From Lachnospiraceae bacterium (GTDB taxonomy: Bacteria > Bacillota > Clostridia > Lachnospirales > Lachnospiraceae): 40,394 nt of DNA. The stretch is taken from positions 1 to 40,394 of the forward strand of contig JAFWRC010000115.1 in NCBI GenBank assembly GCA_017508825.1, given 5' to 3'. The position numbers and the translations under genes are program-made. Shown here piece after piece: positions 5,328 through 38,071 of the stretch. The notes below the pieces were generated by a model, which saw only the letters and a list, made by a program, of their open reading frames with translations, searched no databases and was not told the DNA's origin. Positions within the stretch are counted from its first letter, which is position 1, and the number at the start of each line of letters is the position of its first letter.

Positions 5328-5364
5328 AGTTTTGTAAAAACCTCCTAATAGCAATTTAGATCCG

Positions 5365-7140: not shown

Positions 7141-7163
7141 TTTCTTAATACCTACCGTCAATA

Positions 7164-8168
7164 TCAGCCATGCCAGGATTTCGGGATATAAATCTCCTCA
7201 TACTTTGCGATGGCGAAATGATCCGTCATGGATGCGATATAATCGCAGGCTACGCGTTCCACGCTCTCTCCGCGCTCCATCAGATGCTGGAATTCTGCCG
7301 GCATTTCGTTATGATGGCTCACAAAATACGCATAAAGCGTCTTTACCAGTGATTCCGCCTTACTCTCTTCGGCCTTTACAATTTGATTCTGATAGACACG
7401 CTCAAACATAAACTCGCGCATCTCCGTCATCGCCCACTCCACTTCCGGCGTCATCAGGATATCATTCTTATCCCGGCTGGTAGAGATCACATTGTGGATC
7501 AGGTGGTCCAGCCGTTCCCTGGTGGTATAGCCCAGCACGTTGCCGATGGCTCTGGGCACATCCGCATCCGTGAGCACCTGTGCCCGGATGGCATCGTCCA
7601 TGTCGTGATGAATATAAGCCAGTTTATCCGAATACCGTACGATCTTGCCCTCTAAAGTGGAAGGCTTGCCGCGCAACTGGTGATGCTCCATGCCGTCGCG
7701 CACTTCCCAGGTCAGGTTCAGTCCCTCACCGTCACGCTCCAGCACGTCTACCACACGTACGCTCTGCTCATTGTGCCGGAAGCCAAGCGGACACACTTCC
7801 TGGAGTGCACGCTCGCCCGCATGTCCGAAAGGCGTATGCCCCAGGTCATGGCCCAGGGCAATAGCCTCCACCAGTTCCTCGTTCATACGAAGCGCTCTGG
7901 CAATAGTCCTGGCAATCTGTGCCACCTCTAAGGTATGCGTCAGACGCGTGCGGTAATGATCCCCTTCGGGATTCAAAAATACCTGTGTTTTATCTTTTAA
8001 TCGTCGGAAGGCTTTGGAATGCACGATCCTGTCACGGTCACGGGAAAAGACAGGACGGATGTCGCACTGCTCTTCCTCCCGCTCTCTTCCTTTGGAATTT
8101 TCACTGAGCGTCGCATAAGGACTTAAATTCTCACGCTCCGCTTTTTCCAGTTCTTCCCGAATCAGCAT
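7164..8168 (-). CDS. dgt: Deoxyguanosinetriphosphate triphosphohydrolase-like protein (HD domain)
   Basis: This 334-residue HD-domain protein belongs to the dGTPase family, which hydrolyses dGTP or other dNTPs to the nucleoside and triphosphate. The N-terminal family signature (FSRDRDRIVHSKAFRRLKDK) is followed by metal-binding histidines and aspartates in LTHTLEVAQIARTIAR (about residue 78) and GHDLGHTPFGHAGE (about 105-118). It is the short type typical of Firmicutes. The ATG is preceded by GGGGGTGA. It lies 24 bases after purL and 23 bases before dnaG, so it is very likely cotranscribed with both. Substrate preference cannot be read from the sequence. Confidence 0.9.
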   Translation of the reverse strand: MLIREELEKAERENLSPYATLSENSKGREREEEQCDIRPVFSRDRDRIVHSKAFRRLKDKTQVFLNPEGDHYRTRLTHTLEVAQIARTIARALRMNEELVEAIALGHDLGHTPFGHAGERALQEVCPLGFRHNEQSVRVVDVLERDGEGLNLTWEVRDGMEHHQLRGKPSTLEGKIVRYSDKLAYIHHDMDDAIRAQVLTDADVPRAIGNVLGYTTRERLDHLIHNVISTSRDKNDILMTPEVEWAMTEMREFMFERVYQNQIVKAEESKAESLVKTLYAYFVSHHNEMPAEFQHLMERGESVERVACDYIASMTDHFAIAKYEEIYIPKSWHG

Positions 8169-8192
8169 TCCGTCACCCCCGTCATTCAGTTT

Positions 8193-11100
8193 TTATAAAA
8201 AGTATGCCACACCGGACTCGAAGATCTTCAGATCCTGCTCGCCGTAGATGTTGATCGCCACGTGGTCGTCACGACGCTCTGCGTGCGCCATCTTGCCGAA
8301 GCATCTGCCGTCCGGCGAAGTGATACCTTCCACAGCGCCGATGGAACCGTTGATGTTCCACTCTTCGTCCATGGTCACACGGCCTTCCGGATCACAGTAT
8401 CTCGTCGCAATCTGTCCGTTCTCATACAGCTTCTTCAGTACATCGGCCGGTGCCACGAAACGTCCCTCTCCGTGGGATGCTGCCGAGGTGTACACCCCGC
8501 CCAGCTCTGCCTTCTGCAGCCACGGGCTCAGGTTCGATACCACTCTGGTATACGCCATCTTGGAGATGTGGCGGTTGATGGTGTTGAAGGTCAGTGTCGG
8601 GCTCTCTTCCGTCTGTCCCACGATCTCACCGTAAGGTACCAGTCCCAGTTTGATCAGCGCCTGGAAACCGTTGCAGATGCCCAGTGCCAGACCGTCACGC
8701 TCCTGCAACAGTGCGGTTACCGCTTCCTTCAGCTTCTCGTTTCTAAATGCCGTAGCAAAGAACTTCGCGCTGCCGTCCGGCTCATCACCTGCAGAGAAGC
8801 CGCCCGGGAACATAATGATCTGCGCCTGCGCGATCTCTTTTGCAAAAAGCTCTGCCGATTCGCGGATATCTTCTGCGCTGCGGTTCTTAAATACTCTTAC
8901 CACCGGCTTTGCCCCGGCTCTCTCAAAGGCTCTTGCGCTGTCGTATTCGCAGTTCGTACCCGGGAATACCGGAATGAATACGGTCGGTTTCGCCACTTTA
9001 TTCTTGTAGACATGGATCTCTTTCGCTGCAAAGTCCTTAAACTCAACTTCTTTATCTTCTGCCTCACCGGAAACTGCCGGGAATACGCGGTTCAACGGCT
9101 CTTTCCAGTTCTGCAGTGCTTCTGCCTGCTCTACCTTTACGGCACCGTGTACAAACGCGCCGTCAGTCACCTTACCGATCTTCCAGATGTTTGTGCTGAT
9201 CTCGTCGTAAGCATCGTCTGCTGCCAGAGCATCGGCATCTGCTTCTGCCATTTCCACGATGATATCGCCGATGCGGTTTGCAAACAGCTCCTCGGTCGTT
9301 ACTTCATCGGAGATTTCTGCGCCCAAGCCGTTACCAAAGCCCATCTTGGCTACCGCTGCCGGGATACCGTTGGCATCCAGCACATACGCAGCCTTTACCT
9401 TACCTTCGCGGATCAGCCTGGTCACCGCGTCAAATACTTCCATGGTCTCTTTGTAGACCGGGATATCATATTCATCCTTCGGTACGGAGAACAGTACCAG
9501 TGCATCGCCTGCGGTCTTAAACTCCGGTGTGATGATCTGATCCTGCGTTGCCACATCTACCGCAAAGCTTACCAATGTAGGCGGTACATCGATGTGATTG
9601 AAGGTACCGGACATAGAATCCTTACCGCCGATGGATGCCAGACCAAAGCCGAGCTGTGCGTCAAAGGCACCCAGCAGTGCCGCAAACGGCTGGCTCCAGC
9701 GTGACGGATCCTCGGTCATTCTGCGGAAGTACTCCTGGAATGTGAAGTGGATCTTCTTGTGCTCACCGCCGGCTGCCACGATCTTGGCGATCGAAGACAG
9801 TACTGCGTAGATTGCTCCGTGGTACGGGCTCCAGCTGGACAGATACGGATCAAAACCGTAGCTCATCATGGTCACGGTATCGGAAGAATCCGTGCCGGAC
9901 ATAGGCAGCTTCGCCACCATGGTCTGGGTCTCGGTCAGCTGATATTTACCGCCATACGGCATAAATACACTTGCAGCGCCGATGGAAGCATCAAACATTT
10001 CCACCAGGCCCTTCTGGGAGCAGACATTCAGATCAGAGATGACATCCAGCCATGCTGCCTTCTCATCACCCTTCTCCAGATCTTCTGCTGCCTTTTCGGA
10101 GGCCACTTTCTTCAGCGGGTTCTCATCCTCTTCCGGAATATCCACGGAAACGGTGCACTCCTGATGTGCACCGTTGGTATCCAGGAACGCTCTGGAGAGA
10201 TTTACGATATCCTTGCCTCTCCACTGCAACACCAGACGCGGCTCCTTGGTCACAACGGCCACTTCCGTTGCCTCCAGATTTTCCTCGTCTGCATATTTCA
10301 TAAATTCCGCAACATCCTTCGGATCGATGACCACTGCCATACGCTCCTGGGATTCGGAGATCGCCAGTTCCGTACCGTCCAAACCGGCATATTTCTTCGG
10401 CACCTTGTCCAGATCTACGGTCAGACCGTCTGCCAGCTCACCGATGGCAACGGATACACCGCCGGCACCAAAGTCGTTACATTTCTTGATCAGTTTGCTC
10501 ACTTCCGGTCTGCGGAAGAGTCTCTGCAGCTTACGCTCCGTCGGCGCATTACCCTTCTGCACCTCAGCGCCGCACACTTCAATGGACTGCTCGGTATGTA
10601 CCTTGGAAGATCCGGTAGCACCGCCACAGCCGTCACGGCCGGTACGGCCGCCAAGCAGGATGATGATATCCCCCGGATCGGAAGTCAGACGCATTACATT
10701 CTTTCTCGGAGCAGCGCCCATAACGGCACCGATCTCCATACGCTTTGCCACATAGTTTGGATGGTATACTTCCTTAACATAGCCCGTTGCCAGACCGATC
10801 TGGTTACCGTAGGAAGAATAGCCGTGAGCCGCGCCGCGCACCAGTTTCTTCTGCGGCAGCTTGCCCTTTAATGTATCTGCTACCGGCACACGCGGGTCTG
10901 CCGCGCCGGTAATACGCATGGCCTGATATACATAGGAACGTCCTGACAAGGGATCGCGGATCGCGCCGCCAAGACAGGTCGCAGCGCCACCGAAGGGCTC
11001 GATCTCGGTCGGGTGGTTGTGCGTCTCATTCTTAAAGCTGATGAGCCACTCTTCGGTGTACGGATTGGTGCCGTCTCCCGGGGTGATCTCTACCGGTACC

Positions 11101-12020
11101 ACGATGGAGCATGCGTTGATCTCGTCAGACTCTTCCATATCGGTCAGCACGCCGTCGTGACGCAGCTTCTTCATAGCGATCAGCGCCAGATCCATCAGGC
11201 AGACAAACTTGTCATCCCTGCCCTTGTACAGCTCTTCTCTGGTGTCCAGGTAGCTCATATAGCTGGTCTCCAGCGGGGTGCGGTAATAACCGTCCGCAAA
11301 GGAGACATCCTTCAATTCCGTTGCAAAGGTGGTATGACGGCAGTGGTCGGACCAGTAGGTATCCAGCACACGGATCTCGGTCATGGACGGATCTCGGTGC
11401 TCCTCCCCTGCGAAATAGTTCTGGATGTGCTGGAAGTCCTTGAAGGTCATAGCCAGCCCCAGAGAATCATACAGGTCTTTTAAGTCGCTCTCGTTCATCG
11501 TCGAGAAGCCGTCAAAGATCTTGACATCTGCCGGCTCGTCGTATTCCGTTACCAGTGTGGCCGGCTTTTCCAGACCGGTCTCACGGGAATCCACCGGATT
11601 GATGCAGTGCGCTTTGATACGCGCAAACTCATCATCCGAAATATCGCCGGTGATCACATAGGTCACCGCCGTGTGAATGATCGGCGCTTCATCTTCCTTT
11701 AAGAAGCGGATGCACTGTTCTGCAGAATCGGCACGCTGGTCGTACTGGCCCGGCAGATACTCCACACCGAATACCCTGCCGCCTGCCGGGATCTCGATCT
11801 CTTCCCGGTACAGGAGATCAACAGGCGGTTCGGAAAAGACAGTCTTGCAGGCCTGTTCCAACACCTCATCGGAGATATTCTCCACATCATAGCGGATATA
11901 GACCTTTACACTCTCCAGGCCCTTGATGCCGAGATAGCCTTTGATCTCGTGCTTCAGTTCCTTGTCCTTTACCGCATACTCCGGTTTCTTGGTTACGTAG
12001 ATACGCTTAACGCCGCTCAT
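8193..12020 (-). CDS. purL: Phosphoribosylformylglycinamidine synthase, single-chain PurL/PurQ type
   Basis: FGAM synthase performs the fourth step of purine biosynthesis, converting FGAR to FGAM with ATP and glutamine. The 1275-residue chain includes the N-terminal PurS-like region, two AIR-synthase-like halves, with SDHCRHTTFATEL at about residue 227 and FKNETHNHPTEIEPFGGAA at about 335, and a C-terminal class I glutaminase domain. The glutaminase nucleophile is in LGICNGFQALIKLG (about 1117), with a histidine in MAHAERRDDH near the C-terminus. Bacillus splits these functions among PurS, PurL and PurQ; the fused form occurs in Proteobacteria and many Clostridia. The ribosome binding site is AAGAGGAA just before the ATG. 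A promoter lies at 12143-12171 and a long inverted repeat is in the leader. Confidence 0.96.
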   Translation of the reverse strand: MSGVKRIYVTKKPEYAVKDKELKHEIKGYLGIKGLESVKVYIRYDVENISDEVLEQACKTVFSEPPVDLLYREEIEIPAGGRVFGVEYLPGQYDQRADSAEQCIRFLKEDEAPIIHTAVTYVITGDISDDEFARIKAHCINPVDSRETGLEKPATLVTEYDEPADVKIFDGFSTMNESDLKDLYDSLGLAMTFKDFQHIQNYFAGEEHRDPSMTEIRVLDTYWSDHCRHTTFATELKDVSFADGYYRTPLETSYMSYLDTREELYKGRDDKFVCLMDLALIAMKKLRHDGVLTDMEESDEINACSIVVPVEITPGDGTNPYTEEWLISFKNETHNHPTEIEPFGGAATCLGGAIRDPLSGRSYVYQAMRITGAADPRVPVADTLKGKLPQKKLVRGAAHGYSSYGNQIGLATGYVKEVYHPNYVAKRMEIGAVMGAAPRKNVMRLTSDPGDIIILLGGRTGRDGCGGATGSSKVHTEQSIEVCGAEVQKGNAPTERKLQRLFRRPEVSKLIKKCNDFGAGGVSVAIGELADGLTVDLDKVPKKYAGLDGTELAISESQERMAVVIDPKDVAEFMKYADEENLEATEVAVVTKEPRLVLQWRGKDIVNLSRAFLDTNGAHQECTVSVDIPEEDENPLKKVASEKAAEDLEKGDEKAAWLDVISDLNVCSQKGLVEMFDASIGAASVFMPYGGKYQLTETQTMVAKLPMSGTDSSDTVTMMSYGFDPYLSSWSPYHGAIYAVLSSIAKIVAAGGEHKKIHFTFQEYFRRMTEDPSRWSQPFAALLGAFDAQLGFGLASIGGKDSMSGTFNHIDVPPTLVSFAVDVATQDQIITPEFKTAGDALVLFSVPKDEYDIPVYKETMEVFDAVTRLIREGKVKAAYVLDANGIPAAVAKMGFGNGLGAEISDEVTTEELFANRIGDIIVEMAEADADALAADDAYDEISTNIWKIGKVTDGAFVHGAVKVEQAEALQNWKEPLNRVFPAVSGEAEDKEVEFKDFAAKEIHVYKNKVAKPTVFIPVFPGTNCEYDSARAFERAGAKPVVRVFKNRSAEDIRESAELFAKEIAQAQIIMFPGGFSAGDEPDGSAKFFATAFRNEKLKEAVTALLQERDGLALGICNGFQALIKLGLVPYGEIVGQTEESPTLTFNTINRHISKMAYTRVVSNLSPWLQKAELGGVYTSAASHGEGRFVAPADVLKKLYENGQIATRYCDPEGRVTMDEEWNINGSIGAVEGITSPDGRCFGKMAHAERRDDHVAINIYGEQDLKIFESGVAYFL

Positions 12021-12055
12021 TTTTTTCCTCTTTCTTTAATGTTGATACACTATTG

Positions 12056-12126
12056 TTGAGCCATGGGGACGGTTCTTGTGGCTCGTTTTGCAAAAACCTG
12101 CCACAAGAACCGTCCCCGTGGCTCAA
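12056..12126. repeat. 71-base inverted repeat in the purL leader
   Basis: Two 27-base arms (12056-12082 and 12100-12126) match except for one base, which still allows a G-U pair in RNA, and enclose a 17-base loop. The arms run from TTGAGCCA through GGGGACGGTTCTTGTGGC. It has no T-tract on the minus strand side, so it is not an ordinary terminator. I recall similar GGGGACGGTTCTTGTGG palindromes as dispersed repeats in Clostridia, possibly mobilised by REP-associated tyrosine transposases; that link is recollection and inference. It lies between the promoter and the start codon of purL, so it would be part of the mRNA leader. Confidence 0.85.
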
Positions 12127-12142
12127 CAGACACACAGAGTTT

Positions 12143-12171
12143 ATTATATCCCCTTTTTCAATGCATGGCAA
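12143..12171 (-). promoter_or_regulatory. Promoter of the purL-dgt-dnaG-rpoD unit
   Basis: On the minus strand TTGCCA (12166-12171) and TATAAT (12143-12148) are separated by exactly 17 bases, a strong sigma-A promoter. Transcription would start near 12136, about 115 bases before the purL ATG, which places the whole 71-base inverted repeat in the leader. Confidence 0.8.
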
Positions 12172-12209
12172 GGGGACTTCTTTCTCCCTCTGTCCGGCAT
12201 ATTTTTTTC

Positions 12210-12662
12210 TTATGCCGTCCAGAAGTCCACCAGCTCCTTCATTTTACTGACCGTATGCCAGAGCACGCCGTTCTGCACACCCTCGTTCCATACGGTTCCC
12301 TTTGTCATTCCGCGCAGAACGTAACTGGAAAGGATGGCCCCCAGGTTCTCGATCTCCATGATCTGCGTCCTGTCGATCAGCTTATGCTCGTCTTCCGGCG
12401 TCTGCAGATGATACCGCCGGTAGACATAGACATAATTTTTCGTCACAAATGCCGTCTTCTGCGCCTTTTTGATAAAGCCCAAAAGCGTAGAATCATAGAC
12501 CGGCACCTTGATCGTATTGCCCTTGCCTTCCGTGGGATCCACCGAACGGGTCATATCCTGGCCCTTCTTCGATTCCAGCCAGCCCAGATATCGTGAGAGT
12601 TCTTCCACATCTGCCCGGTACTTGTTCAGTTTTTCCGTTACGCTTTCCTTGGAATCCTGCAT
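12210..12662 (-). CDS. Conserved-looking protein of unknown function
   Basis: I do not recognise this 150-residue soluble protein. It begins with a charged helical segment (about residues 1-35, heptad-like) followed by a mixed alpha/beta region rich in aromatic residues (NYVYVYRRYHLQ) and ends in FWTA. There is no signal peptide, membrane segment or cysteine cluster. The ATG has a strong ribosome binding site (AAAGGGGGA). It lies 26 bases after the hybrid histidine kinase and is probably the last gene of the superoxide reductase operon. I see no clear terminator between it and the purL promoter. Confidence 0.75.
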   Translation of the reverse strand: MQDSKESVTEKLNKYRADVEELSRYLGWLESKKGQDMTRSVDPTEGKGNTIKVPVYDSTLLGFIKKAQKTAFVTKNYVYVYRRYHLQTPEDEHKLIDRTQIMEIENLGAILSSYVLRGMTKGTVWNEGVQNGVLWHTVSKMKELVDFWTA

Positions 12663-12688
12663 GTCTTTCCCCCTTTCGAATGTTCCTA

Positions 12689-15481
12689 TTAATACAGCAG
12701 TCTGATCAGTTCCATCGCCTCATCATATTCAAAATCCGCAACCGCCTTCTTCACCTCCAGCAGCTGCCGGCGGATACCGGTATCCAGCGGGTAGGTGAGC
12801 AGGTTGTCGATCTTGCGCGCCGCCTCCGACTGCTCGAGCAGTTCCAGACTGCCCTGCAGGGAATGCAGCATGTTGGAAAATTCCTCCCAGGTCAGTTCCT
12901 CTTCACGGATTTGTATGATCTCCTCGCGCAGCATGCCTGCATTATCCAATGCCTCCCGGATAGACTCGAGCATCTTTTCGTACTGCGAGATCAAAAACTC
13001 ACCTTCCCGCTCGATGATCTCGATCTTGCCGTCACGCCCTGCGTATTCCTGCAGACGCGCCAGCTCGGAAAGCTGCCCTGCGCCGATCCCGGCCATCAGG
13101 CCCTTCAGTGCATGCACCTCAAAAATATACTGCCGGTAACTCTGGGATTCCAGGCAGTCCCGGATGCGCTGTACGTGCCCCGGTCCGTCGTCGCAGATGT
13201 ACTTTAAGATCTGCAGGTACCGTCCCTTGTCACCGCCATAGTTCTTAAGTCCCGCTGCCACATCCACATTCGGCAGATCGATCTGTACATCGCTGTAGTC
13301 GAACTCATCGCTTTCTTTATCCACATAGTGGATGATCTCCGGCGGCAGGAATTTCTTCAGGATTGCCTCCATGCTGGAGAGCGCGATCGGTTTCGAGATA
13401 TACTCCTGAAAGCCGTTCTGCAGGAACATCTCCCGGGTGCCGCTGATCGCATTTGCCGTAAGCGCGATGATCGTCAGATTACGGATGCCCGGATCCTTGT
13501 GCTTGCGGATCAGCGCCGTCGTCTCGATACCATCCATCTCCGGCATCATCTGGTCCATCAGGATCATATGGTAATTGTTCTTTTCGATCTTCTCCAGGCA
13601 CTCCTGCCCGCTCATCGCCGTATCCACACGCACCTGGTACATGGTCAGGATACCGCGCGCCACCTTGATATTTGTGATATTGTCATCGACCACCAGGATC
13701 TTTGCCAGTGGCGCAATGAAACTCTTGCGTTCATGCTCCGGCTGCGCCGGCAGTTCCAGATAGTCATAATTCCCCATCGGGGTATCGTCTGCCACCTTCT
13801 GATAATAGGTAAAAGAAAACACGCTGCCGATCCCATAAGTACTCTTAACGGAGATCTGACCGCCCATTCCTTCCACCAGACGCTTGCAGATGGCCAGTCC
13901 GAGTCCCGTACCTTCAATGGTACGGTTCGTGATCATATCCGCGCGCTGGAAACTGTCAAACAACGTCGGCAGGCTTTCCTCGCGGATACCCTTACCGGTA
14001 TCTTCCACGGAAACCTTCACAAAGGCCTGCCCGTTCCTGGCCTCCCAGCCCACATTCAGCCGGATGTATCCGCGGCTGGTGTATTTTGCAGCATTGGTCA
14101 GGATATTGGAGTAGATCTGCCGCACCTGTGTCTCATCTCCCAGAAACATCCGGGGAAGATCCTCCTCCACATGCACAATAAGTTCCACATTCTTATCCGC
14201 CAGACGCACGCCCACCATGTTGCAGATATCCTTCAGCACCAGCCCCAGGTTGTATTCTGTCTCGGCCGATTCCACCTTGCCGGTCTCGATCTTGGAAAAG
14301 TCCAGGATCCCGTTAATGATGGAAAGCAGCGTATTGCTGGCGCTGCGGATGTTGTTGGCGTTTTCCTCCACCTTACTGTTGATGTTGTCGTTTAAGATCA
14401 GCTCCGTCATACCGATGATGGCGTTCATAGGCGTACGGATCTCGTGACTCATATTGGCAAGGAAAACCGATTTTGCCTGGTTGGCTTTTTCTGCTTCTTC
14501 CTTCAGTTCGATCAGCGTGTTGGTGAACTCATGCTCCTCAGTTTTATCGTTGATCCAGATCGTGGTACCTTTGTAGGTCTCCTTGTCATAAAAGGGTACC
14601 AGTGAGATCTGGTACTGCCGTCCGTTTGCCTCGATCTCCGTCTTGTCCGAACGCTGCAGCCGGGAGACGATCGCCTCCTGGTAGCCTTCCATGCTCAGCT
14701 GCGGAAAGATCTCCTTGGCCCGCTCGTTGACAAACAGGATGCGTTCCAGGGCATCGATCACGACGAACCCCTCTTCGATCGTCTCGATGATATCGTCCCG
14801 CGCCATCTGCAGGGAGTCAAACATGCGGTAACGGTAAACGATCACCACAACCGCGATCCATGTCGCCGCGATCACCACCGGCAGCAGGGAATACGCCGGA
14901 AGCAGCTGCCGTACCAGAAACAGAAGCAGGATCCCGAATGCCGGGATCAGGTTGCTTACGGCAATCCACTTGGCGCCCTGATTGGTCTCCAGTTTTTTGT
15001 TGCAATAATTGTTGAAAGTGATGTGAAAAGCAAGCTCGCAGATCAAGGCATTACAGATCCCCGTGTAGTAGTACAGCACGCCGAAGGCTCCGTTCTCCTG
15101 CTGCCGGAAATAAAAAACAGCCCCGGTCTCCATGGACCGTCCCAAAAACAGGAGCAGGTTCACATTCAGCACCAGGTAAGCCAGCAGCGCCACCTCCGCT
15201 GTGCGTCCCATCTTCATTCCGCAGGATCGTATCGAAAAAAAGGCAAGGGCCACAACAAACATGGTCTGGCCGGCTCCTTCCAGTATAGCCGACACTTCCA
15301 TAGTTCCCGTATCCTTTGCCCCCAGACCGATCAGGGCGCTGCCGATCACCACGGCAGCTGCCAGTCCGGTAAAATTTAATCCCTTTTGAATGGGAGATGT
15401 CTCCCGACGATTGATCGCGATCAGCGATGCGATCAGAAACGCAGACGCCAATATGCAGATCACACGTAATACGATCACCAT
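12689..15481 (-). CDS. Hybrid sensor histidine kinase with receiver and Hpt domains
   Basis: The 930-residue protein begins with about seven hydrophobic helices (to about residue 217), like the 7TM sensor modules of Clostridia. A PAS domain follows (about 230-310), then the phosphoacceptor helix (SHEIRTPMNAIIGM, His near 345), an ATPase domain with EDTGKGI and GTGLGLAICKRLV, a receiver with VVDDN and the acceptor Asp in LMDQMMPEMDG (about 640), and a C-terminal Hpt domain with HALKG (about 790). A complete internal phosphorelay is therefore encoded, but no DNA-binding response regulator is next to it. It starts 3 bases after the ExbD-like gene and is very probably cotranslated with it. The sensed signal is unknown; the context suggests envelope energy or redox state. 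Confidence 0.93.
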   Translation of the reverse strand: MVIVLRVICILASAFLIASLIAINRRETSPIQKGLNFTGLAAAVVIGSALIGLGAKDTGTMEVSAILEGAGQTMFVVALAFFSIRSCGMKMGRTAEVALLAYLVLNVNLLLFLGRSMETGAVFYFRQQENGAFGVLYYYTGICNALICELAFHITFNNYCNKKLETNQGAKWIAVSNLIPAFGILLLFLVRQLLPAYSLLPVVIAATWIAVVVIVYRYRMFDSLQMARDDIIETIEEGFVVIDALERILFVNERAKEIFPQLSMEGYQEAIVSRLQRSDKTEIEANGRQYQISLVPFYDKETYKGTTIWINDKTEEHEFTNTLIELKEEAEKANQAKSVFLANMSHEIRTPMNAIIGMTELILNDNINSKVEENANNIRSASNTLLSIINGILDFSKIETGKVESAETEYNLGLVLKDICNMVGVRLADKNVELIVHVEEDLPRMFLGDETQVRQIYSNILTNAAKYTSRGYIRLNVGWEARNGQAFVKVSVEDTGKGIREESLPTLFDSFQRADMITNRTIEGTGLGLAICKRLVEGMGGQISVKSTYGIGSVFSFTYYQKVADDTPMGNYDYLELPAQPEHERKSFIAPLAKILVVDDNITNIKVARGILTMYQVRVDTAMSGQECLEKIEKNNYHMILMDQMMPEMDGIETTALIRKHKDPGIRNLTIIALTANAISGTREMFLQNGFQEYISKPIALSSMEAILKKFLPPEIIHYVDKESDEFDYSDVQIDLPNVDVAAGLKNYGGDKGRYLQILKYICDDGPGHVQRIRDCLESQSYRQYIFEVHALKGLMAGIGAGQLSELARLQEYAGRDGKIEIIEREGEFLISQYEKMLESIREALDNAGMLREEIIQIREEELTWEEFSNMLHSLQGSLELLEQSEAARKIDNLLTYPLDTGIRRQLLEVKKAVADFEYDEAMELIRLLY

Positions 15482-15484
15482 TCT

Positions 15485-15952
15485 TTACTTTTCCTCAGAA
15501 TAGCTCAGGCCTGCCGCATCCAGCACTGCTTTTACACTGCTGTAATCCGCTACCACCGCATGCTCATCCTTCAGTACCAGCTCTGCCCCTTCCGGCAGAT
15601 TGCCCACTGCCTCGGTGAGTTTCTCGATCGTCACGGCCTCACCATCCAGCGTGATGCCGTTCTCACCCACAGCGATCACATACGGTCCGGTCGTCTCCCC
15701 GGAGCCCAGTGCCTTCGTCTCCGGTGTCGGCTGTTCCTGTTCTGCCGGCGTCGGCTGCTCCGCCTGCGACTGCGCCGGTACTGTCGACGCACTCCCCGGT
15801 AAAAGACCACCGAGACCGCCCAGCCCAAAGTTCAGTCCCAGCCCGATCAGTAATAAAATCAGAAGCAGGATAAGCAATAAGCCCGCTTTGCTCTTTTTCT
15901 TCTTTTTATCCCTTTTTGCCTCTTTCTTTTCGGCTTTTTCCTGATCTGCCAT
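15485..15952 (-). CDS. Membrane-anchored protein with ExbD-like extracellular domain
   Basis: This 155-residue protein has a Lys/Glu-rich N-terminus, one transmembrane helix (about 24-46), a Gln/Pro/Glu-rich linker, and an outer domain of about 60 residues. That domain reads like the periplasmic domain of ExbD/TolR (ENGITLDGEAVTIEKL... VLKDEHAVVADYSSVKAVLD). Unlike the neighbouring ExbD-like protein, its helix lacks the proton-carrying aspartate. It may be a partner or sensor subunit formed by duplication. It lies 24 bases after the ExbD-like gene and 3 bases before the histidine kinase. The ExbD resemblance is my reading of a weak pattern and would need a structure-based comparison. Confidence 0.75.
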   Translation of the reverse strand: MADQEKAEKKEAKRDKKKKKSKAGLLLILLLILLLIGLGLNFGLGGLGGLLPGSASTVPAQSQAEQPTPAEQEQPTPETKALGSGETTGPYVIAVGENGITLDGEAVTIEKLTEAVGNLPEGAELVLKDEHAVVADYSSVKAVLDAAGLSYSEEK

Positions 15953-15976
15953 GTTACTATCCTCCCCTGTTATAAC

Positions 15977-16507
15977 TTATTGTGCAACCGTCTCGCGGTA
16001 TTGCACAAACACATTATCTTTGTGGCCGGCCGTCTTCAACACTTCCGACACCATCTCAAAATCACTCTGGTATAGTTTCGTCCCGTCATAGGTAAATACC
16101 AGAAAGATCTGCTTCCCTTCCCCTGCACGCTCCGTCTTTGCACCCACACTTTCCTGCAAAAACTGCCATGCCGCATCGGTACTGTCCCAGTCATAATGAA
16201 AACTTTCCGTACTGTTGTCGCGGATCACCTGAATGGTCCGCCCGTTTTCCTCCGGCAGGATGCTGATATAAAAGACTTCGGCATCCGCAAGCAGGGACTC
16301 ATATTCCGTCAGCTGCCCCTGTAATGCCTCCTGCATCGCCTCTGCTTCCGCGATCTGTGCCTCCGCTTCTGCGATCTTTTCTTCCGCTTCCGCCGCTTTC
16401 GCATCCACTGCTTCGGCATTCCGGATCAGGATCAGAAACAGCAGGATAAAGATCACGTCCAAAAGAGGTGTCAGATCTGCAGTTATGGACCGGTTACGCT
16501 TCTTCAT
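15977..16507 (-). CDS. ExbD/TolR-like biopolymer transport protein
   Basis: The 176-residue protein begins with a short basic segment and the hallmark ExbD/TolR helix DLTPLLDVIFILLFLIL (about residues 10-26), which contains the conserved aspartate that carries protons in ExbD, TolR and MotB. A long Ala/Glu coiled-coil stalk (about 30-75) follows, then an extracytoplasmic domain with FYISILPEE and IFLVFTYDGTKLYQSDFEMV. It overlaps the ExbB-like gene by 14 bases. Together they should form an ion-driven channel of the ExbBD/TolQR/MotAB type. Classical ExbBD and TolQR energise the outer membrane, which this organism is not expected to have, so the partner is unknown. Confidence 0.85.
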   Translation of the reverse strand: MKKRNRSITADLTPLLDVIFILLFLILIRNAEAVDAKAAEAEEKIAEAEAQIAEAEAMQEALQGQLTEYESLLADAEVFYISILPEENGRTIQVIRDNSTESFHYDWDSTDAAWQFLQESVGAKTERAGEGKQIFLVFTYDGTKLYQSDFEMVSEVLKTAGHKDNVFVQYRETVAQ

Positions 16508-17270
16508 CCCCGCTCTGCGCCTCCGCCGCCTGTACTGTCTCCGTTACCGCTGCATTATCGGGATCCGCCGTACCGGCATCCGATGCAGCCGCATCCGGCT
16601 CAGTCGCCGCTTCTGTAGTCTCCTCAGTATCTTCTGCAGCAGCCGTCTTCTCCTGCGCCTCCTCGGTCGCCCGCTCTGCCACCGGGACGTTTTCCGCATC
16701 CGTTACAGCTTTCTCCGGCGCCGGTGTTTCGTGCTTCTTGACGCATTGTACTGCCTGCACCATCTCCGTTTTGCTTTCCGCTTTTTTCTGCGTCCCCTCG
16801 TATTCCCGCATCTGGATCAGTTCCGTGATGCGCTCCCCCATATCCAGATGGAAGGAAATACCGGAATCTACCAGCTTAAAAACGATCGTAAAAATAATAC
16901 CCCACAGTGTAGAAGTCAATGCTCCCATAAACTCGCCCGTCAGATCCGCGCTGCTGTCTACCAGATGCAGCAGGGAGATCACGGTTCCGAGAATCCCCAA
17001 CAGGGTAAATATCCCGGTCAGATTGCAGAACAATGTATAAAAGAATTCCGCTTTCTGCCACTTCTCATACAGACTGAAATAGGTACTGTTTTCCTGTGCC
17101 TGTGCGATCGCTGCCTCTGCATTTCCCGAGGAGATATTGATCCTGGGCGCCACGCTCTCATACAGGGCACGCGCCTTCTTCCAGGCAAGAAAAAAGACCA
17201 CGGCATTCACTGCCGCCATCACAAAGATGATCCAGTCATAACTCAAAAAGTTCGAAAATAGTATTTTCAT
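16494..17270 (-). CDS. MotA/TolQ/ExbB-like proton channel protein
   Basis: The 258-residue protein has an N-terminal membrane helix (about 10-28), then the two-helix core of the MotA/TolQ/ExbB family: FTLLGILGTVISLLHL (about 93-108) and ALTSTLWGIIFTIVFKLVD (about 120-140). It ends in an Ala/Glu/Thr-rich acidic tail of about 80 residues. In the family five such subunits surround two ExbD-type subunits and convert proton or sodium flow into rotation. It starts 6 bases after the superoxide reductase stop codon and overlaps the next gene by 14 bases, so the proteins are almost certainly made together. The tail is not usual for ExbB and could be a cytoplasmic interaction region. Confidence 0.85.
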   Translation of the reverse strand: MKILFSNFLSYDWIIFVMAAVNAVVFFLAWKKARALYESVAPRINISSGNAEAAIAQAQENSTYFSLYEKWQKAEFFYTLFCNLTGIFTLLGILGTVISLLHLVDSSADLTGEFMGALTSTLWGIIFTIVFKLVDSGISFHLDMGERITELIQMREYEGTQKKAESKTEMVQAVQCVKKHETPAPEKAVTDAENVPVAERATEEAQEKTAAAEDTEETTEAATEPDAAASDAGTADPDNAAVTETVQAAEAQSGDEEA

Positions 17271-17276
17271 ATCCTT

Positions 17277-17651
17277 TTAAAGTTCCTTCACCCACAGTCC
17301 ATGCAGATTGCAATACTCATATACCGCCACGGCAGCATCACCATCAGTCAGCGCAAATTCCGCTGCCGGCTTCTCCTCCGGTTTCAGATATTTGATCTGG
17401 CAGCCGTTTTTGCTTTCCAACGCAACGAACTGGATATAATGAGCCTCGATCATCGGGTGTTCCACCTCACCGATCTGCACCTTCACTGTATTCCCATCCA
17501 CAGTAACCGCAGGCACATGCTTTTCAAAAGCCCCGTCCGTCGCACCGGGTACCAGTTCCTTCATCGGTGCCCCACAGCATACCACAGGCACTTTGCTGTC
17601 GTTTACTTTGGTGATGATGTTTCCACAGGTTTCACAACGATAGAATTTCAT
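17277..17651 (-). CDS. dfx: Superoxide reductase (desulfoferrodoxin, two-iron type)
   Basis: Superoxide reductase reduces superoxide to hydrogen peroxide without releasing oxygen, suiting anaerobes. The 124-residue protein has the N-terminal desulforedoxin Cys4 iron site (CETCG...VVCCG, about residues 6-29). The catalytic centre II ligands are histidines in EKHVP, EHPM and EAHYI and the C-terminal CNLHGLW. I chose the ATG at 17651 with AAGGAG 9 bases upstream; an in-frame TTG 18 bases earlier overlaps that site. It is the first gene after a clear promoter and is followed after 6 bases by the ExbB-like gene. Confidence 0.94.
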   Translation of the reverse strand: MKFYRCETCGNIITKVNDSKVPVVCCGAPMKELVPGATDGAFEKHVPAVTVDGNTVKVQIGEVEHPMIEAHYIQFVALESKNGCQIKYLKPEEKPAAEFALTDGDAAVAVYEYCNLHGLWVKEL

Positions 17652-17701
17652 GATCCTGACTCCTTTCAATCTGTGACAAGAATTCGATAAACAACGTTAT
17701 C

Positions 17702-17730
17702 ATTATAGCACAGAATCCGGCCCGCTTCAA
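17702..17730 (-). promoter_or_regulatory. Promoter of the superoxide reductase-ExbBD-kinase operon
   Basis: On the minus strand TTGAAG (17725-17730) and TATAAT (17702-17707) are 17 bases apart, about 50 bases upstream of the dfx ATG. The later genes of the operon show no comparable promoter and lie within 0-26 bases of each other. No obvious PerR-type operator was seen. Confidence 0.78.
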
Positions 17731-17736
17731 TGCAGA

Positions 17737-17765
17737 AAACCACTGTGAACGTATCACAGTGGTTT
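17737..17765 (-). terminator. Hairpin after the zinc-ribbon protein gene
   Basis: A perfect 12-base stem (AAACCACTGTGA with TCACAGTGGTTT) with a 5-base loop lies 26 bases beyond the stop codon of the gene at 17791. Only a short T-rich tail follows on the minus strand, so termination may be partial. It overlaps the approach to the dfx promoter. Confidence 0.6.
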
Positions 17766-17790
17766 CCGATCCGGGTGTCCGCCCCGCCTT

Positions 17791-18360
17791 TCAGTCGCTG
17801 TTTTTCTTTATAAACCCGCGCAGTGAATCCGGCCCGGTAAAGATCCGGTGGTCATTCCCCGTTTTTTCCGAAACATACGCCGTTCCTTTTGCGATATATC
17901 TGGTATACGGATAAGGGCCGTCATACGACCTGTCATCATAGTAAATATCGATGACCGTATCACAGTGATGAAGGACTGCATTGATCTTCAACTGGTACAA
18001 AGCGTCTTCCTCCGATGTCCCCTCACTGTCCAGTGTGACCGGTACTTTACCTGTGATCCGCTCTGCATATTCATCCCCTTTATATCCGATCGGATATGCC
18101 TCTACATCTTCCACCTTCTTTAACACGATCTTGTAGGTCTCTTCGATCAGCTGGCCGCACTTTTTACAGATCGGATCATGTTTGCGGAGCCAGTAGTTCG
18201 CAAAACGCTCCTCTCTTGCTCCCATAAACTCATAACGTTCAAAATTCTTATTCCTGCTTTGCTTCCCGCAGCAGGAACAGGTGACGATCCTGTTCTCATG
18301 AAATCTTTTTGCCGCATATCCCGCTCCCGCGATCGCCATCGGAACAACAAACCATGCCAT
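17791..18360 (-). CDS. Zinc-ribbon-like protein of unknown function
   Basis: I do not recognise this 189-residue protein. It has a short hydrophobic N-terminus (WFVVPMAIAGAGYAA), then paired cysteines CSCCG and CKKCG (about residues 29 and 69), which look like a treble-clef or zinc-ribbon site. A mixed domain with ADP-like aromatic and charged patches (DVYYDDRSY type, KGTAYVSEKT) follows. I chose the ATG at 18360 with GAGGTG 6 bases upstream; a GTG 9 bases earlier overlaps the stop codon of the hydrolase. Close spacing implies translational coupling to the hydrolase. Confidence 0.7.
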   Translation of the reverse strand: MAWFVVPMAIAGAGYAAKRFHENRIVTCSCCGKQSRNKNFERYEFMGAREERFANYWLRKHDPICKKCGQLIEETYKIVLKKVEDVEAYPIGYKGDEYAERITGKVPVTLDSEGTSEEDALYQLKINAVLHHCDTVIDIYYDDRSYDGPYPYTRYIAKGTAYVSEKTGNDHRIFTGPDSLRGFIKKNSD

Positions 18361-18365
18361 ACCAT

Positions 18366-19106
18366 TCACCTCTTCCTGAAAAATTCGTAGATCGCCGTAT
18401 ACAGTTCATCCAGATATCCGCCGTAACAATGATCGGCTCCGGAGATGGCCACCAGCGTCGCATTTTTATACAGGGATACCGCTTTTTCCACATACCCATA
18501 AGGAACCACACTGTCGGATGCGCCGTGCACGATCAGTACCGGCCCGTTGTATCTTGCGATCTCATCTTCCACATGGATCGTCTGGGCCACCCGGATATAA
18601 TCGCCATCCAGTGTGTGCTCCCAGGTCTGCAGCACATCCGGAATGTGCTGCGGATCAAACTCCGTTCCCAGCAATGTCCCCTGTCTCGCAAATTCCGGGA
18701 TCATCCATGCCGGCGACATCGGAATGATCGCCTTCAGATCATCCGCGCACATACCGCCGACCAGCATCGTCAGCAGACCGCCCTGCGAATGCCCGCACAG
18801 ATACAGGTCTGTCACAAAATCCAGTTTCTTTGCATACGCAACGACTGCCAATGCATTCGTCACCCATTTGTACAACGTGTGGCTGCGAAACTCCCCGTCA
18901 CTGCCTCCGTGCCCGTACATCTCTGCCCGCAGCACCGCAACGCCCGCATCGTTCATCGCCTTCTGCGTAGTCGTCAGGTGTTCTTCTTCCATATTCCCGG
19001 TAAACCCGTGGATCAGAATGCACAGCGGACATTTTTCCGCACCGTCCGGTTTATCCAGCTTTGCATGCAACCGGATCCCGTCACAATCAATGTAAAATTC
19101 TTCCAT
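18366..19106 (-). CDS. Alpha/beta hydrolase, esterase-like
   Basis: The 246-residue protein has an alpha/beta hydrolase fold with HGFTGN near the N-terminus (oxyanion region), nucleophile Ser in GHSQGG (about 104), the acid Asp in GASDSVVP (about 199) and catalytic His in DHCYGG (about 225). It most resembles cytoplasmic cinnamoyl/feruloyl-type esterases of gut Firmicutes and lactobacilli; the natural substrate is not known. There is no signal peptide, so it acts inside the cell. It follows the transpeptidase-phosphatase gene by 53 bases and is followed directly by the zinc-ribbon gene. Confidence 0.88.
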   Translation of the reverse strand: MEEFYIDCDGIRLHAKLDKPDGAEKCPLCILIHGFTGNMEEEHLTTTQKAMNDAGVAVLRAEMYGHGGSDGEFRSHTLYKWVTNALAVVAYAKKLDFVTDLYLCGHSQGGLLTMLVGGMCADDLKAIIPMSPAWMIPEFARQGTLLGTEFDPQHIPDVLQTWEHTLDGDYIRVAQTIHVEDEIARYNGPVLIVHGASDSVVPYGYVEKAVSLYKNATLVAISGADHCYGGYLDELYTAIYEFFRKR

Positions 19107-19159
19107 CTTTCTTTCCCCTGAAATCTTTATTTGAGCTGCCCTTCGGTATACAGCTCAGC

Positions 19160-20977
19160 TCAGGCAGCATCTTTAAGATCCGCCGTTCCCGAACCTCCGA
19201 TTGCCTGCGGTTCGATATACTGCACACCCGATTTGGTTATGCCTTCCGGATAGATGCGCAGGAAATCATTTTGCATCGAGATCGGGATGTATCCCTGCTT
19301 CACATATTGCGCCGCTTTTTCTTCCCAATTCTGCATGCCCCATTCCCGCGCGTTATCATCCGCAACCACCATAAATGCCGCAGAAGGATAGGGATTTTCC
19401 GAATCCAGCACATAATTCATCATGCTGGTATCGCTCCCGCTGTTTCCGAATGCCAGCACCGGACGCTGTCCGATCTCGCGCTCGATCCAGATTGCTTTAT
19501 TTGCATTCAGGTTCTTTTGAACAAAACCTCCGGTCAGCACAAGCTCATCACCATCGTTATACTTAAAGTCCATATTGGAAGCGACATTTTCGTAGCCGCG
19601 TACCTTCACCTCAAATTCCGTACCGATCACATGTGCCGGCGAAACATAGGGTGCGATCGGTGAATTTGCCACGATGGCTCTGGTAGTAGTCCGTTCCGTT
19701 CCGCTTACAACATAGATCGTGAAGCCGTTATCATACAGGTATTTTACCACTTCAACCATCGGAAGGTAAAAACCGTCGATATAGCGCATATTGTTGAAAC
19801 TGTCCGTCGGCTTCTTTCCGAATTCCACGGCATAATCATAAAGCTCGTCCACTGTCATCCCCGCATAGGCTTTTGCGAAATTTCTGGCAAGCTCCTCTCC
19901 GGCCGTATATCCGGGTTTGATCTCCAGAGCAGCTGCTTTCAGTTCATCCGATACCCTTTCCGGATGATCCTTCAGACAATAGTCTATAAACATGCAGGTA
20001 TCATAATAGGTAAAATAGGTTTCGCATGTAAGCGTCCCGTCCATATCAAATACGGCAATACGGTCCTGCACCGGGATAAAGTCCTTTGAACGCACATCTG
20101 TTACCGCATTAACATAAGCTGTCAAAGACTGCATCGCAACCGAAGACGGGTTCCATTCCAGGATATAATTCGGATCCGCCGCTGCCGCAGATGCCGGATT
20201 CATCAGATGCTCCTTGGTATCGATGACCACAACGCAATCTGCCTTTACTCTCTGCATGATCAGTTTCATAATGTTCTCAGGCACAGCCACACAGCCACCG
20301 GTATACGGATTTTCCGGGCCAAAGCAATGCAGGAAGATCGCTGATCCCCTGCCCGCCGTACCATCTGCATTAAAGCTGATGTTCAGGCAATACTGGTATT
20401 GATACTTATAGTCAATGATATGCTCGCTGTTCGCCATATCCAGATCCGGATAATCCCGGATATCCACCATCTCATTATAGTGTCTGCCGTTACGCATATC
20501 CCCGGACCAATAGGTATTTTGATCTACCTGTACATAGGGGATCGCGCACCCCGGATCTGCAGCGATGCCAAACGCTTTATTAAATCTATAGGTGCCGACC
20601 GGTGTCTGGCCGCAGCCTTCTTTATGATCCGCATCCAGACAAAGTCCGTTTTTCCCAACATATCCGGGCGTTGACAGTACTTCTTTCCAGGTGCCGTCCG
20701 CAGCCCGTTCATGCATCGATATCGTTGCCGTTGTCTTATCCGCGCCTGCACCTGCCACGATAAAAAGCTGCGTCACATCTCCACTCTGCGCCGAAGGCAG
20801 AGCGCTTACCCATTCCGGAGAATCCTTTATCTCCTGACCGGATGCATAGAGTCCGTCTGTCCCTTCGGACCGCACCGTTTCTTCGCCGGCTGCTTCCGTC
20901 CGCAGCGCAGGACTGCCAAATGCCCCGACCAGCAGCAGCATTGCCAAACCGTTTACCATACAGTTTCTCATCTTCAT
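19160..20977 (-). CDS. Secreted fusion of L,D-transpeptidase (YkuD-like) and HAD phosphatase domains
   Basis: The 605-residue protein starts with a signal peptide (hydrophobic core NGLAMLLLVGAFG, cleavage near residue 30). Residues about 60-250 are an L,D-transpeptidase-like domain of the type with an HCF...PYTGGCVAV motif: His near 219, Cys near 228. Such enzymes form 3-3 cross-links or attach proteins to peptidoglycan. Residues about 305-540 are a HAD hydrolase with FDMDGTLT, VVSGTE, a motif III lysine and FGNSGSDTSM, resembling phosphoserine-phosphatase-like members. Both domains keep their catalytic residues. The ATG has AAAGGA 9 bases upstream. Two catalytic domains, one normally cytoplasmic, secreted as one chain is unusual. 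I cannot name the phosphatase substrate. Confidence 0.85.
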   Translation of the reverse strand: MKMRNCMVNGLAMLLLVGAFGSPALRTEAAGEETVRSEGTDGLYASGQEIKDSPEWVSALPSAQSGDVTQLFIVAGAGADKTTATISMHERAADGTWKEVLSTPGYVGKNGLCLDADHKEGCGQTPVGTYRFNKAFGIAADPGCAIPYVQVDQNTYWSGDMRNGRHYNEMVDIRDYPDLDMANSEHIIDYKYQYQYCLNISFNADGTAGRGSAIFLHCFGPENPYTGGCVAVPENIMKLIMQRVKADCVVVIDTKEHLMNPASAAAADPNYILEWNPSSVAMQSLTAYVNAVTDVRSKDFIPVQDRIAVFDMDGTLTCETYFTYYDTCMFIDYCLKDHPERVSDELKAAALEIKPGYTAGEELARNFAKAYAGMTVDELYDYAVEFGKKPTDSFNNMRYIDGFYLPMVEVVKYLYDNGFTIYVVSGTERTTTRAIVANSPIAPYVSPAHVIGTEFEVKVRGYENVASNMDFKYNDGDELVLTGGFVQKNLNANKAIWIEREIGQRPVLAFGNSGSDTSMMNYVLDSENPYPSAAFMVVADDNAREWGMQNWEEKAAQYVKQGYIPISMQNDFLRIYPEGITKSGVQYIEPQAIGGSGTADLKDAA

Positions 20978-21055
20978 AAGCCATATTCCTTTCTTTGTTA
21001 TTTCACTTTATTGTATCGTAAAATCCCGATCTTTGCATTCCCAAATGATAAATTA

Positions 21056-21094
21056 GCGTTCTGCTTGCAAAAAGGCGTTCTGCAAGCAGAACGC
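21056..21094 (-). terminator. Terminator of the 30-residue microprotein gene
   Basis: On the minus strand GCGTTCTGC/GCAGAACGC (21075-21094) forms a 9-base stem followed by C and five T residues. A second half-site at 21056-21068 can instead pair perfectly over 13 bases with 21082-21094. It lies about 37 bases downstream of the microprotein stop codon. The same palindrome is found at position 1-19. Confidence 0.75.
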
Positions 21095-21130
21095 CCGGCA
21101 TGGTTGCAGCAGCAACACGCTTCTATTCAT

Positions 21131-21223
21131 CTACCCCACGCAGACCATCAGCGGACCATAATAGTGCAGGAATGTCATTACCAATACCATCACGCAAAAG
21201 AGCTTTTTCTTCGTCTTTGCCAT
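21131..21223 (-). CDS. Candidate 30-residue hydrophobic microprotein
   Basis: The reading frame encodes a short basic head (MAKTKKK), a hydrophobic stretch of about 12 residues (LFCVMVLVMTFL) and a tail rich in Tyr, Met and Val with a second cysteine near the end. The ATG is preceded at 7 bases by AGAGGGGGA, one of the strongest ribosome binding sites in the window, and an intrinsic terminator follows. The architecture fits a small membrane peptide, toxin-like peptide or secreted signal. No known family is recognised, and no immunity or processing gene is evident beside it. An overlapping 61-codon frame in another phase lacks such a ribosome binding site. Confidence 0.5.
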   Translation of the reverse strand: MAKTKKKLFCVMVLVMTFLHYYGPLMVCVG

Positions 21224-21560
21224 CGTCAGATCCCCCTCTCTTACACTGCCCCCCTTCGGGTCTGCCACTGTTCTGTTGTATGGCATCACAGTGGTATGCC
21301 ATTAACAATATTATATATGAAACAGCCCTTCCATACTATGCGTAAAAACGTATATATAATAAAGCTCCGTTTGTACATCATGTACAAACAATTATTTTCT
21401 GAATATTTACTGCCGTTTTTTCTGCGATAATTCCGCCGCTTTCTGATATTAACCTATATCGATCTCACTTAACCCTGCAGTTCTTCTCTTACGCTGTTTA
21501 TGGTCCGTTTTATGTTTCTGCGGATCTGTTGCCATAACCTCTCACTTTTCATTTATAACA
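21224..21560. other. Intergenic region between the microprotein and the zinc-ribbon gene terminator
   Basis: The 21224-21366 part is the leader of the microprotein on the minus strand, with a TGGCAT/ATGCCA hairpin (21281-21301) and a TATAAT-like hexamer without a convincing -35. A 21-base palindrome lies at 21369-21389. A 28-codon minus-strand frame (MATDPQKHK...), with a GAGAGG only 2 bases before its ATG near 21534, is too weakly supported to call. Nothing else was recognised. Confidence 0.4.
21369..21389. promoter_or_regulatory. 21-base palindrome, possible operator
   Basis: Ten-base arms GTTTGTACAT and ATGTACAAAC surround a single central base. The site lies 146 bases upstream of the microprotein ATG, next to TATTAT/TATATA sequences (about 21351-21361) that could serve as -10 elements. 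Such symmetry fits a dimeric repressor site (for example TetR or GntR type); no regulator gene is adjacent. Confidence 0.5.
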
Positions 21561-37909: not shown

Positions 37910-38042
37910 ATACGTACCTCTCTTTACTATAAAGAATATATTTAACCTGAGTTCCCGACAGTTTTTTAGTCTACAACTAGTTTTATAGCTACACAAAACA
38001 CCTTGAAAAGCTTGTAAATACTGTATTTTCCGGCATTTTCTC

Positions 38043-38071
38043 TTGTAATATATCATTGATTCTGTTATAAT
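38043..38071 (+). promoter_or_regulatory. Transposase promoter
   Basis: TTGTAA (38043-38048) and TATAAT (38066-38071) are 17 bases apart, about 45 bases before the transposase ATG. A perfect 9-base inverted repeat (TAATGTAGA, 38068-38076; TCTACATTA, 38095-38103) overlaps the -10 and the start region and could be an operator or an mRNA leader hairpin. Confidence 0.8.

Follow-up and report, generated by a model that had tools for sequence, protein, structure and literature searches.

Do ExbB- and ExbD-like genes in a bacterium that appears to have no outer membrane form a working unit of their own, or do they belong with the superoxide reductase and the histidine kinase encoded beside them? ExbBD-type motors are usually discussed as devices reaching an outer membrane. 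The question is raised by six open reading frames (ORFs), all on the minus strand at 12210-17651 of a 40,394-nucleotide stretch of DNA from a rumen Lachnospiraceae bacterium (contig JAFWRC010000115.1; hereafter, the window is this whole stretch). In order, they encode a superoxide reductase (SOR), an ExbB/TolQ/MotA-like protein (ExbB), two ExbD-like proteins (ExbD1 and ExbD2), a hybrid histidine kinase and a small protein. An earlier note on the window had read them as one system that senses redox state or wall tension. Its parts list was confirmed, whereas the joint circuit was not, so that this interpretation is supported in part. Judged from gene order and sequence comparison, the six-gene set is a composite, and the actual unit is a cassette of three genes (ExbB-ExbD1-ExbD2). 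We consider it probable (roughly 0.6) that this cassette, in a cell that lacks an outer membrane, encodes a membrane motor related to ExbBD, TolQR and MotAB and powered by the ion gradient.

The cassette was followed through 48 examples, namely 37 strong loci from the order, nine loci from the genus and two loci from a contig collection (L018 and L019). ExbD1 was the next gene after ExbB in 48/48, and ExbD2 came next in 46 of the 47 cassettes in which this was determinable (the cassette of L134 reaches the contig end). In all 48, ExbB and ExbD1 either overlapped or lay no more than 27 bases apart, and the ExbD1-ExbD2 distance was at most 112 bases in all 44 loci measured. Profiles made from the window and L014-L019 alone recovered 42/42 other ExbD2 rows (weakest E-value 0.0026, for a set of 1000) and 41/41 other ExbD1 rows (weakest 0.0012, same set size). 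The ExbD2 of L025-L031 had initially been chosen by position and shape for row set A3; the held-out repeat recovers all 10 of these rows. Two consecutive ExbD2-like genes were found in L026, L029, L031, L129, L133, L139 and L140. Hence, a cassette with one ExbB and one ExbD1 gene can have two copies of the Asp-less partner.

When 295 genomes of the order were searched with the ExbB profile, 75 matched. Thirty-seven of these, from six families and including the genome of the window, had E-values of 1.1e-15 or lower. For the other 38, the best E-value was 5.6e-7 or weaker and the frames were mostly longer; they were set aside by score and length, without individual checks, as probable flagellar MotA. 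No other genome with a strong ExbB score appeared among 398 genomes of the phylum, few of which are from this order. The 18 weak phylum matches (42.8-47.7 bits) included 12 loci with a canonical ExbB-ExbD pair. Among 60 relatives searched at the protein level, counting the own genome, 13 had ExbB matches. The contig-collection scan gave six loci, of which L014-L017 are on the same contigs as genomes G018, G022, G006 and G010. A match in G045 (E = 9.8e-4, 60 residues, with internal stops) was not used. Many of the genomes are draft assemblies, and adjacency judged from contigs may miss links at contig ends.

The first gene of the cassette encodes a ring-subunit homologue. The window ExbB alone scored 21.2 bits against Pfam MotA_ExbB (cut-off, 22.9) and 23.3 in the genome search. 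At family level, 14/14 members matched MotA_ExbB at E ≤ 1 (best, 1.1e-14), and the ExbB profile matched the solved structures of MotA, TolQ and PomA (best E, 4.1e-7). Hydropathy indicates three hydrophobic stretches. Residues T96 and T121 and a G-x-x-G-T motif were invariant in 48/48 proteins, and an acidic tail beyond about residue 165 was variable. From their positions in the second and third transmembrane helices (TM2 and TM3), we take T96 and T121 to be the ion-path threonines. The protein thus has the features of a MotA/TolQ/ExbB ring subunit, a MotA_ExbB domain with Thr residues in TM2 and TM3. The own genome has a second, far stronger MotA_ExbB match, which is probably the flagellar MotA.

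ExbD1 has a single hydrophobic stretch with D17, followed by a coiled-coil-like stretch. The window protein alone scored 17.9 against Pfam ExbD (cut-off, 25.4). As a family, 14/14 members matched PF02472 at E ≤ 1 (best, 1.1e-7) and 28/48 at E ≤ 0.01. The claim of the earlier note that the locus encodes an ExbB/ExbD-type channel agrees with these results. The channel Asp motif T-x-[LF]-[LF]-D was present in 48/48. When the ExbD1 profile was aligned to canonical ExbD (row set A10, the 12 of the 18 weak phylum loci with an ExbD ORF), the similarity covered the Asp helix only (columns 3-41; hhalign, 93.7%, E = 1.8e-7). The solved ExbD/TolR structures also matched over the helix (E = 0.009-0.05).

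ExbD2 starts with a Lys-rich N-terminus and a hydrophobic stretch, which are followed by a Gly-rich and then Pro/Glu-rich linker and a C-terminal ExbD-type domain. Among 49 proteins (row set A8, from which four ExbD2-like rows of L029 and L031, present in A3, were left out), no acidic residue occurs in the middle of the transmembrane stretch; in 9/49, one is found among the final three of the 19 residues considered. For the C-terminal domain, a profile of 37 sequences was compared with the periplasmic part of the 12 canonical ExbDs. This set, A9, was obtained by removing 12 of the 49 rows, namely second copies, rows nearly identical to others, and the two rows each from L129, L139 and L140, which are divergent. 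The score was 36.0 with a probability of 90.6%, whereas the best of 300 column shuffles gave 18.0 and the reversed profile 14.7. Six unrelated control profiles (REC, PAS, HATPase, Hpt, small protein and SOR, the last with only 3 sequences) scored 8.8-12.9 against ExbD. The window ExbD2 itself gave no match to Pfam ExbD, and its likeness to ExbD rests on the profile comparison. The second, Asp-less ExbD-like protein of the earlier note is therefore upheld by profile. The Asp helix and the ExbD domain, which a typical ExbD or TolR joins in one protein, were found on ExbD1 and ExbD2, respectively. Thus, the two functions of ExbD look divided over two proteins.

In the part of PMC12905483 available, a ring of five ExbB/TolQ subunits surrounds a dimer of Asp-bearing helices, protons pass via the Asp, and the ExbD/TolR domain carries a peptidoglycan site. 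In the cassette, ExbB would build the ring, and ExbD1 would contribute the helix in the pore, with its Asp as ion carrier. The ExbD-type extracytoplasmic domain would come from ExbD2, held by a flexible linker. Since the ExbD/TolR domain has the peptidoglycan site, the wall or a surface protein would receive the power stroke. The own genome (89.69% complete), the one carrier genome searched, gave no match to PF03544 or PF01103, and hence no detectable TonB C-terminal domain or Omp85, in line with the Gram-positive cell of the earlier note. In 14 control genomes, Omp85 and the TonB C-terminal domain were detected in 7 and 4, respectively. Thus, a target in the wall or among the surface proteins is to be expected. 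Sequence and profile comparisons show that ExbB, the pore helix of ExbD1 and the domain of ExbD2 have homologues in the known motors, that the presumed ion-path residues are invariant and that a common gene order runs through the 48 cassettes; from these results we infer assembly, ion flow, rotation and wall contact.

The place of ExbD2 can be pictured in two ways, and both fit the motor explanation: it lies either within the ring, as the partner of ExbD1, or outside. In the former case, ExbD would have been split in the course of evolution, and one ExbD1 and one ExbD2 helix would occupy the ExbB pore together as an obligate heterodimer. The motor would then be 5:1:1, with only one ion-carrying Asp, and would drive a wall process in single-membrane bacteria. 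We regard this version as rather doubtful. Such a motor would differ from the alternating mechanism with two Asp residues that has been proposed for MotAB and TolQR. In the latter case, two ExbD1 would occupy the pore (5:2 plus transducer), and ExbD2 would be a TonB/TolA-like force transducer with an ExbD-type head. The order of a ring gene, an axle gene and a third gene fits this idea, as do the single TM, the Pro/Glu-rich linker and the small head; PMC12204202, in its available part, describes TonB/TolA-like transducers with unrelated head domains. In contrast, none of the 49 ExbD2 proteins has a His in its TM core, hence no SHLS motor-binding motif; as this motif is defined in the same part of PMC12204202, its absence argues against the TonB/TolA docking mode. 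The ExbD-type head also speaks against a transducer. On balance, the transducer arrangement is a tentative possibility.

The same part of PMC12204202 considers the occasional Ton systems of monoderms, including complete ones in some Clostridia, as likely non-functional, a class to which some of the cassettes described here may belong. A decayed or non-functional Ton system would also agree with the lack of TonB_C and Omp85 in the own genome. However, the Asp and Thr residues are invariant in 48/48 and the gene order is constant over six families, and we consider decay very improbable.

The distribution within the genus was examined by profile search, and the cassette was found in 10/35 genomes. 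In a tree of the 48 ExbB proteins, the genus label needs four changes, and the starred branches force four, compared with a mean of 9.3 for shuffled labels. These numbers point to several cassette lineages within one genus, by transfer or by old duplication and loss; as the branches are long, the details are unsure. Four tree places within one genus would fit the mobility of an anti-phage defence system such as Zorya, with which the cassette shares MotA/ExbB ancestry. No PADLOC match was obtained for ExbB, ExbD1 or ExbD2, and the Zorya identity was rejected. No defence-like neighbour was noticed by eye, in the course of which no dedicated search was made. A Zorya-like role is extremely improbable.

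The cassette lies beside the kinase in five of the 10 genus carriers and elsewhere in the other five (on another contig in four, and about 72 kb away in G015). In the window and L014-L017, which represent one clade of five genomes, the order is ExbB-ExbD1-ExbD2-kinase-small gene. Within this clade, the kinases are 79-96% identical and the ExbB proteins show 65-76% identity, and the gene preceding ExbB varies among most members. The next gene after the small gene in the window and L014-L016, as far as read, is one that we take to be purL.

The kinase and the small protein are far more widespread. The kinase (by its N-terminus) and the small protein were each found in 33/35 genus genomes; neither was found in G012 or G025, and in G008 the kinase match is limited to a 66-residue fragment. 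From the 28 genus genomes that have the kinase without an adjacent cassette, we took 20 loci (L141-L160). The kinase and the small gene were together in 20/20, and purL was within range in 19. A tblastn search with the window ExbB and ExbD proteins, which can detect close relatives only, gave no match near these 20 loci. The profile search likewise showed no cassette at these loci, and four of the 20 genomes have one at another place. In G010, the cassette and the kinase are separated by 161 bases, and some 2 kb upstream of the cassette there are a 140-aa gene and an ABC-F ATPase gene (identified by eye). The same two genes precede the kinase in several cassette-free genomes, which fits an insertion of the cassette. 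Thus, the kinase and the small gene are a genus-core pair, in front of which the cassette was added in one clade, and the seeming six-gene operon consists of a cassette with a variable gene on one side and this core block on the other. The kinase would then lie downstream of the cassette because the cassette settled ahead of the kinase-small-purL block in that clade, where it may be read through from the same promoter.

The kinase as a conserved partner of the cassette was therefore rejected, since it is adjacent in 5/10 genus carriers and the cassette is missing at 20/20 further kinase loci. A narrower link, in which co-transcription and a functional connection would tie the cassette to the kinase in this clade only, without SOR, would explain why the order was retained in five genomes while the upstream neighbour turned over. 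However, slow rearrangement can also account for the retention, since purL, to which no link is obvious, stays with the kinase and the small gene in 19/20 loci. We regard the clade-restricted link as unlikely.

SOR shows a similar independence. It was found in 19/35 genus genomes and adjoins ExbB in 2/10 genus carriers of the cassette (the window and L014/G018). The SOR genes of G006 and G022 are on other contigs with other neighbours, and none was found in G010. SOR also adjoins the cassette in none of the 34 order loci inspected by eye. On these counts, the SOR-channel link was rejected. SOR is probably an adjacent gene and not part of the motor unit.

On these data, the cassette is independent of SOR and, outside one clade, of the kinase. 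The single module of the earlier note, in which the kinase would read channel activity, wall tension or redox state, draws on the tight packing in the window and on the cassette-kinase-small order, kept in 5/5 genomes of the clade although the upstream neighbour of ExbB varies. Signalling genes also occur near cassettes elsewhere. In L129, of a different family from the window, a response regulator and a HAMP histidine kinase (3289-5480) follow 32 bases after a cassette with two ExbD2-like genes. In L027, of another family, a haem-NO-binding (HNOB) chemoreceptor (5380-7161, same strand) lies about 0.1 kb upstream of ExbB and may point to a gas or redox signal beside the cassette. In L117, a chemoreceptor lies about 2.2 kb upstream of the cassette. 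These signalling neighbours come from one locus each and differ in kind; they do not amount to a rule, but they slightly favour the reading of the earlier note and leave room for a signalling link. In opposition to the single module stand the counts given above, the 161-base gap in G010 and the order loci, where 33/34 have no kinase beside the cassette (by eye). Thus, a joint system of SOR, channel and kinase is improbable. The neighbourhood comparison, which the earlier note had named as able to refute its reading, went against that reading for SOR, which is not a conserved neighbour, and for the kinase outside one clade of five genomes.

Several observations weigh against the motor reading itself. 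First, L117 has no ExbD2, the single exception among the 47 determinable cassettes. Second, no Pro was found at residues 112-137 (TM3) of ExbB in the 48 family members, so that a feature of the ExbB/TolQ subfamily is missing; in ExbB and TolQ, according to the available part of PMC12905483, TM3 has a conserved Pro that is suspected to gate the channel. Third, the C-terminal part of ExbD1 scored 14.3 against ExbD in hhalign, whereas its own shuffles reached 17.9; three other row choices were also negative (at most 17.3). By eye, its strand-helix-strand end is similar to ExbD, and a much diverged ExbD fold is possible. Fourth, ExbD2 members matched Pfam ExbD at E ≤ 0.01 in only 3/49 cases, and the domain profile A9 retrieved no ExbD among solved structures up to E = 10; the full-length profile A3 reached the ExbD structures 8pek (E = 0.65) and 7ajq (E = 1.8). 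Fifth, among up to three neighbours per side at the 34 order loci, inspected by eye from their first residues, no conserved gene points to a substrate; they are mixed and mostly housekeeping genes.

The six genes lie at the places given by the earlier note with the tight spacing it described: from SOR to the small gene, there are 6 bases, a 14-base overlap, and then 24, 3 and 26 bases. Its identifications of the outer genes also hold. Both desulfoferrodoxin domains of SOR, the N-terminal Fe(Cys)4 domain and the catalytic Fe domain, exceed the Pfam cut-off as expected of a two-iron superoxide reductase, and NCBIfam TIGR00320 scored 122.8 bits, below its cut-off of 146.9. In the 7TM-PAS hybrid kinase, HisKA_7TM, HisKA, HATPase_c, Response_reg and Hpt exceed their cut-offs, and PAS_8 is marginally below. 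The small protein has no credible family in Pfam, NCBIfam or PADLOC.

Table 1. Features of the six-gene locus (window coordinates).
Feature	Position	Strand	Basis
SOR, two-iron superoxide reductase (desulfoferrodoxin)	17277..17651	-	PF06397 and PF01880 over Pfam cut-off
ExbB/TolQ/MotA-like subunit, 258 aa	16494..17270	-	MotA_ExbB family matches, structure-profile matches
ExbD1, channel Asp D17	15977..16507	-	PF02472 in 14/14 members at E ≤ 1
ExbD2, Asp-less; C-terminal ExbD-type domain at about 15488-15706	15485..15952	-	Profile comparison
Hybrid histidine kinase, 7TM-PAS-HisKA-HATPase-REC-Hpt	12689..15481	-	Pfam domains
Small protein, 150 aa, no known family	12210..12662	-	In 33/35 genus genomes
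Promoter-like site, TTGAAG-17-TATAAT, TG before -10, upstream of SOR	17702..17730	-	Consensus match only
Second, weaker promoter-like site, overlapping the SOR start codon	17679-17650	-	Consensus match only
Terminator-like hairpin 3' of the small gene, part of one arm of a longer palindrome	12122-12100	-	

The earlier note had also placed the six genes behind one promoter. Promoter-like sites were found before SOR (Table 1) and, three in number, within the ExbB and kinase genes; no terminator-like site was found between the six genes. Six minus-strand terminator-like sites are located inside genes. On both strands of 11000-19000, promoter-like and terminator-like sites number 10 and 10, compared with 6.3 and 6.2 in shuffles. 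As the totals are only a little above the shuffles, these sites are weak evidence.

Around the locus, the following features were observed. A near-perfect long palindrome lies at 12054-12128, between the small gene and purL; as single-strand DNA, it has a fold of -39.2 kcal/mol (z = -11.4). Its 14-base core occurs in 4/199 loci, all of which are the window or the same place in G018. It resembles a REP-type element. An Rfam search of 8000-21500 gave no match. A viral copy was sought, and the 11 pattern stretches gave 0 confirmed relatives. A 605-aa protein (19160-20977) has a YkuD L,D-transpeptidase-like region, marginally under the cut-off (23.3 bits; cut-off, 23.4), and a HAD hydrolase domain. 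Two adjacent giant surface-type proteins with N-termini alike are encoded at 24766-32205 (2479 aa; LRR_5, choline-binding repeats and CAP) and 32504-38056 (1850 aa; a transglutaminase core and nine Big_2 stretches). A transposase gene with a DDE_Tnp_1 domain (38121-39686) adjoins them.

No description of an ExbB-ExbD1-ExbD2 cassette was found in the literature searched, a search that did not reach most subscription journals and preprints. In its available part, a 2022 review (PMC9389320) considers ExbBD a Gram-negative property, and mentions ExbB-family proteins annotated in Gram-positives, noted without ExbD, as remaining to be tested. That a cassette recurs through one order with its ion-path residues invariant, and occurs in a genome lacking outer-membrane markers, suggests a hitherto undescribed powered process at such a wall. 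With its divided ExbD, the cassette is also a natural case for asking whether this motor class requires two Asp residues and whether its pore helix must be joined directly to the anchor domain.

The cassette can be compared with four known systems. Like the MotA-MotB stator, it belongs to the MotA_ExbB superfamily and has a conserved pore Asp; unlike it, the scores and size differ and no OmpA-type domain appears in the Pfam lists of the partners. The available part of PMC12505986 broadly classes non-flagellar MotAB relatives as generic ion transporters (GIT), which resemble the cassette in having diverse appendages and an A gene beside a B gene; that part describes no two-protein B subunit, whereas the cassette would have one. 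The TonB/TolA and vWA transducers in the available part of PMC12204202 share with ExbD2 a TM, a linker, a small head and a gene after ring and axle, and ExbD2 differs from TonB/TolA by the lack of the SHLS motif and by its ExbD-type head. The closest parallels are seen with ExbB-ExbD and TolQ-TolR: a three-stretch ring subunit with TM2 and TM3 threonines, a channel-Asp helix, an ExbD-type extracytoplasmic domain, and a ring gene that immediately precedes the axle gene. The cassette departs from them in the missing TM3 Pro, in a genome without the TonB_C and Omp85 of Ton and Tol hosts, and in the placement of the Asp helix and the recognisable ExbD domain on two proteins.

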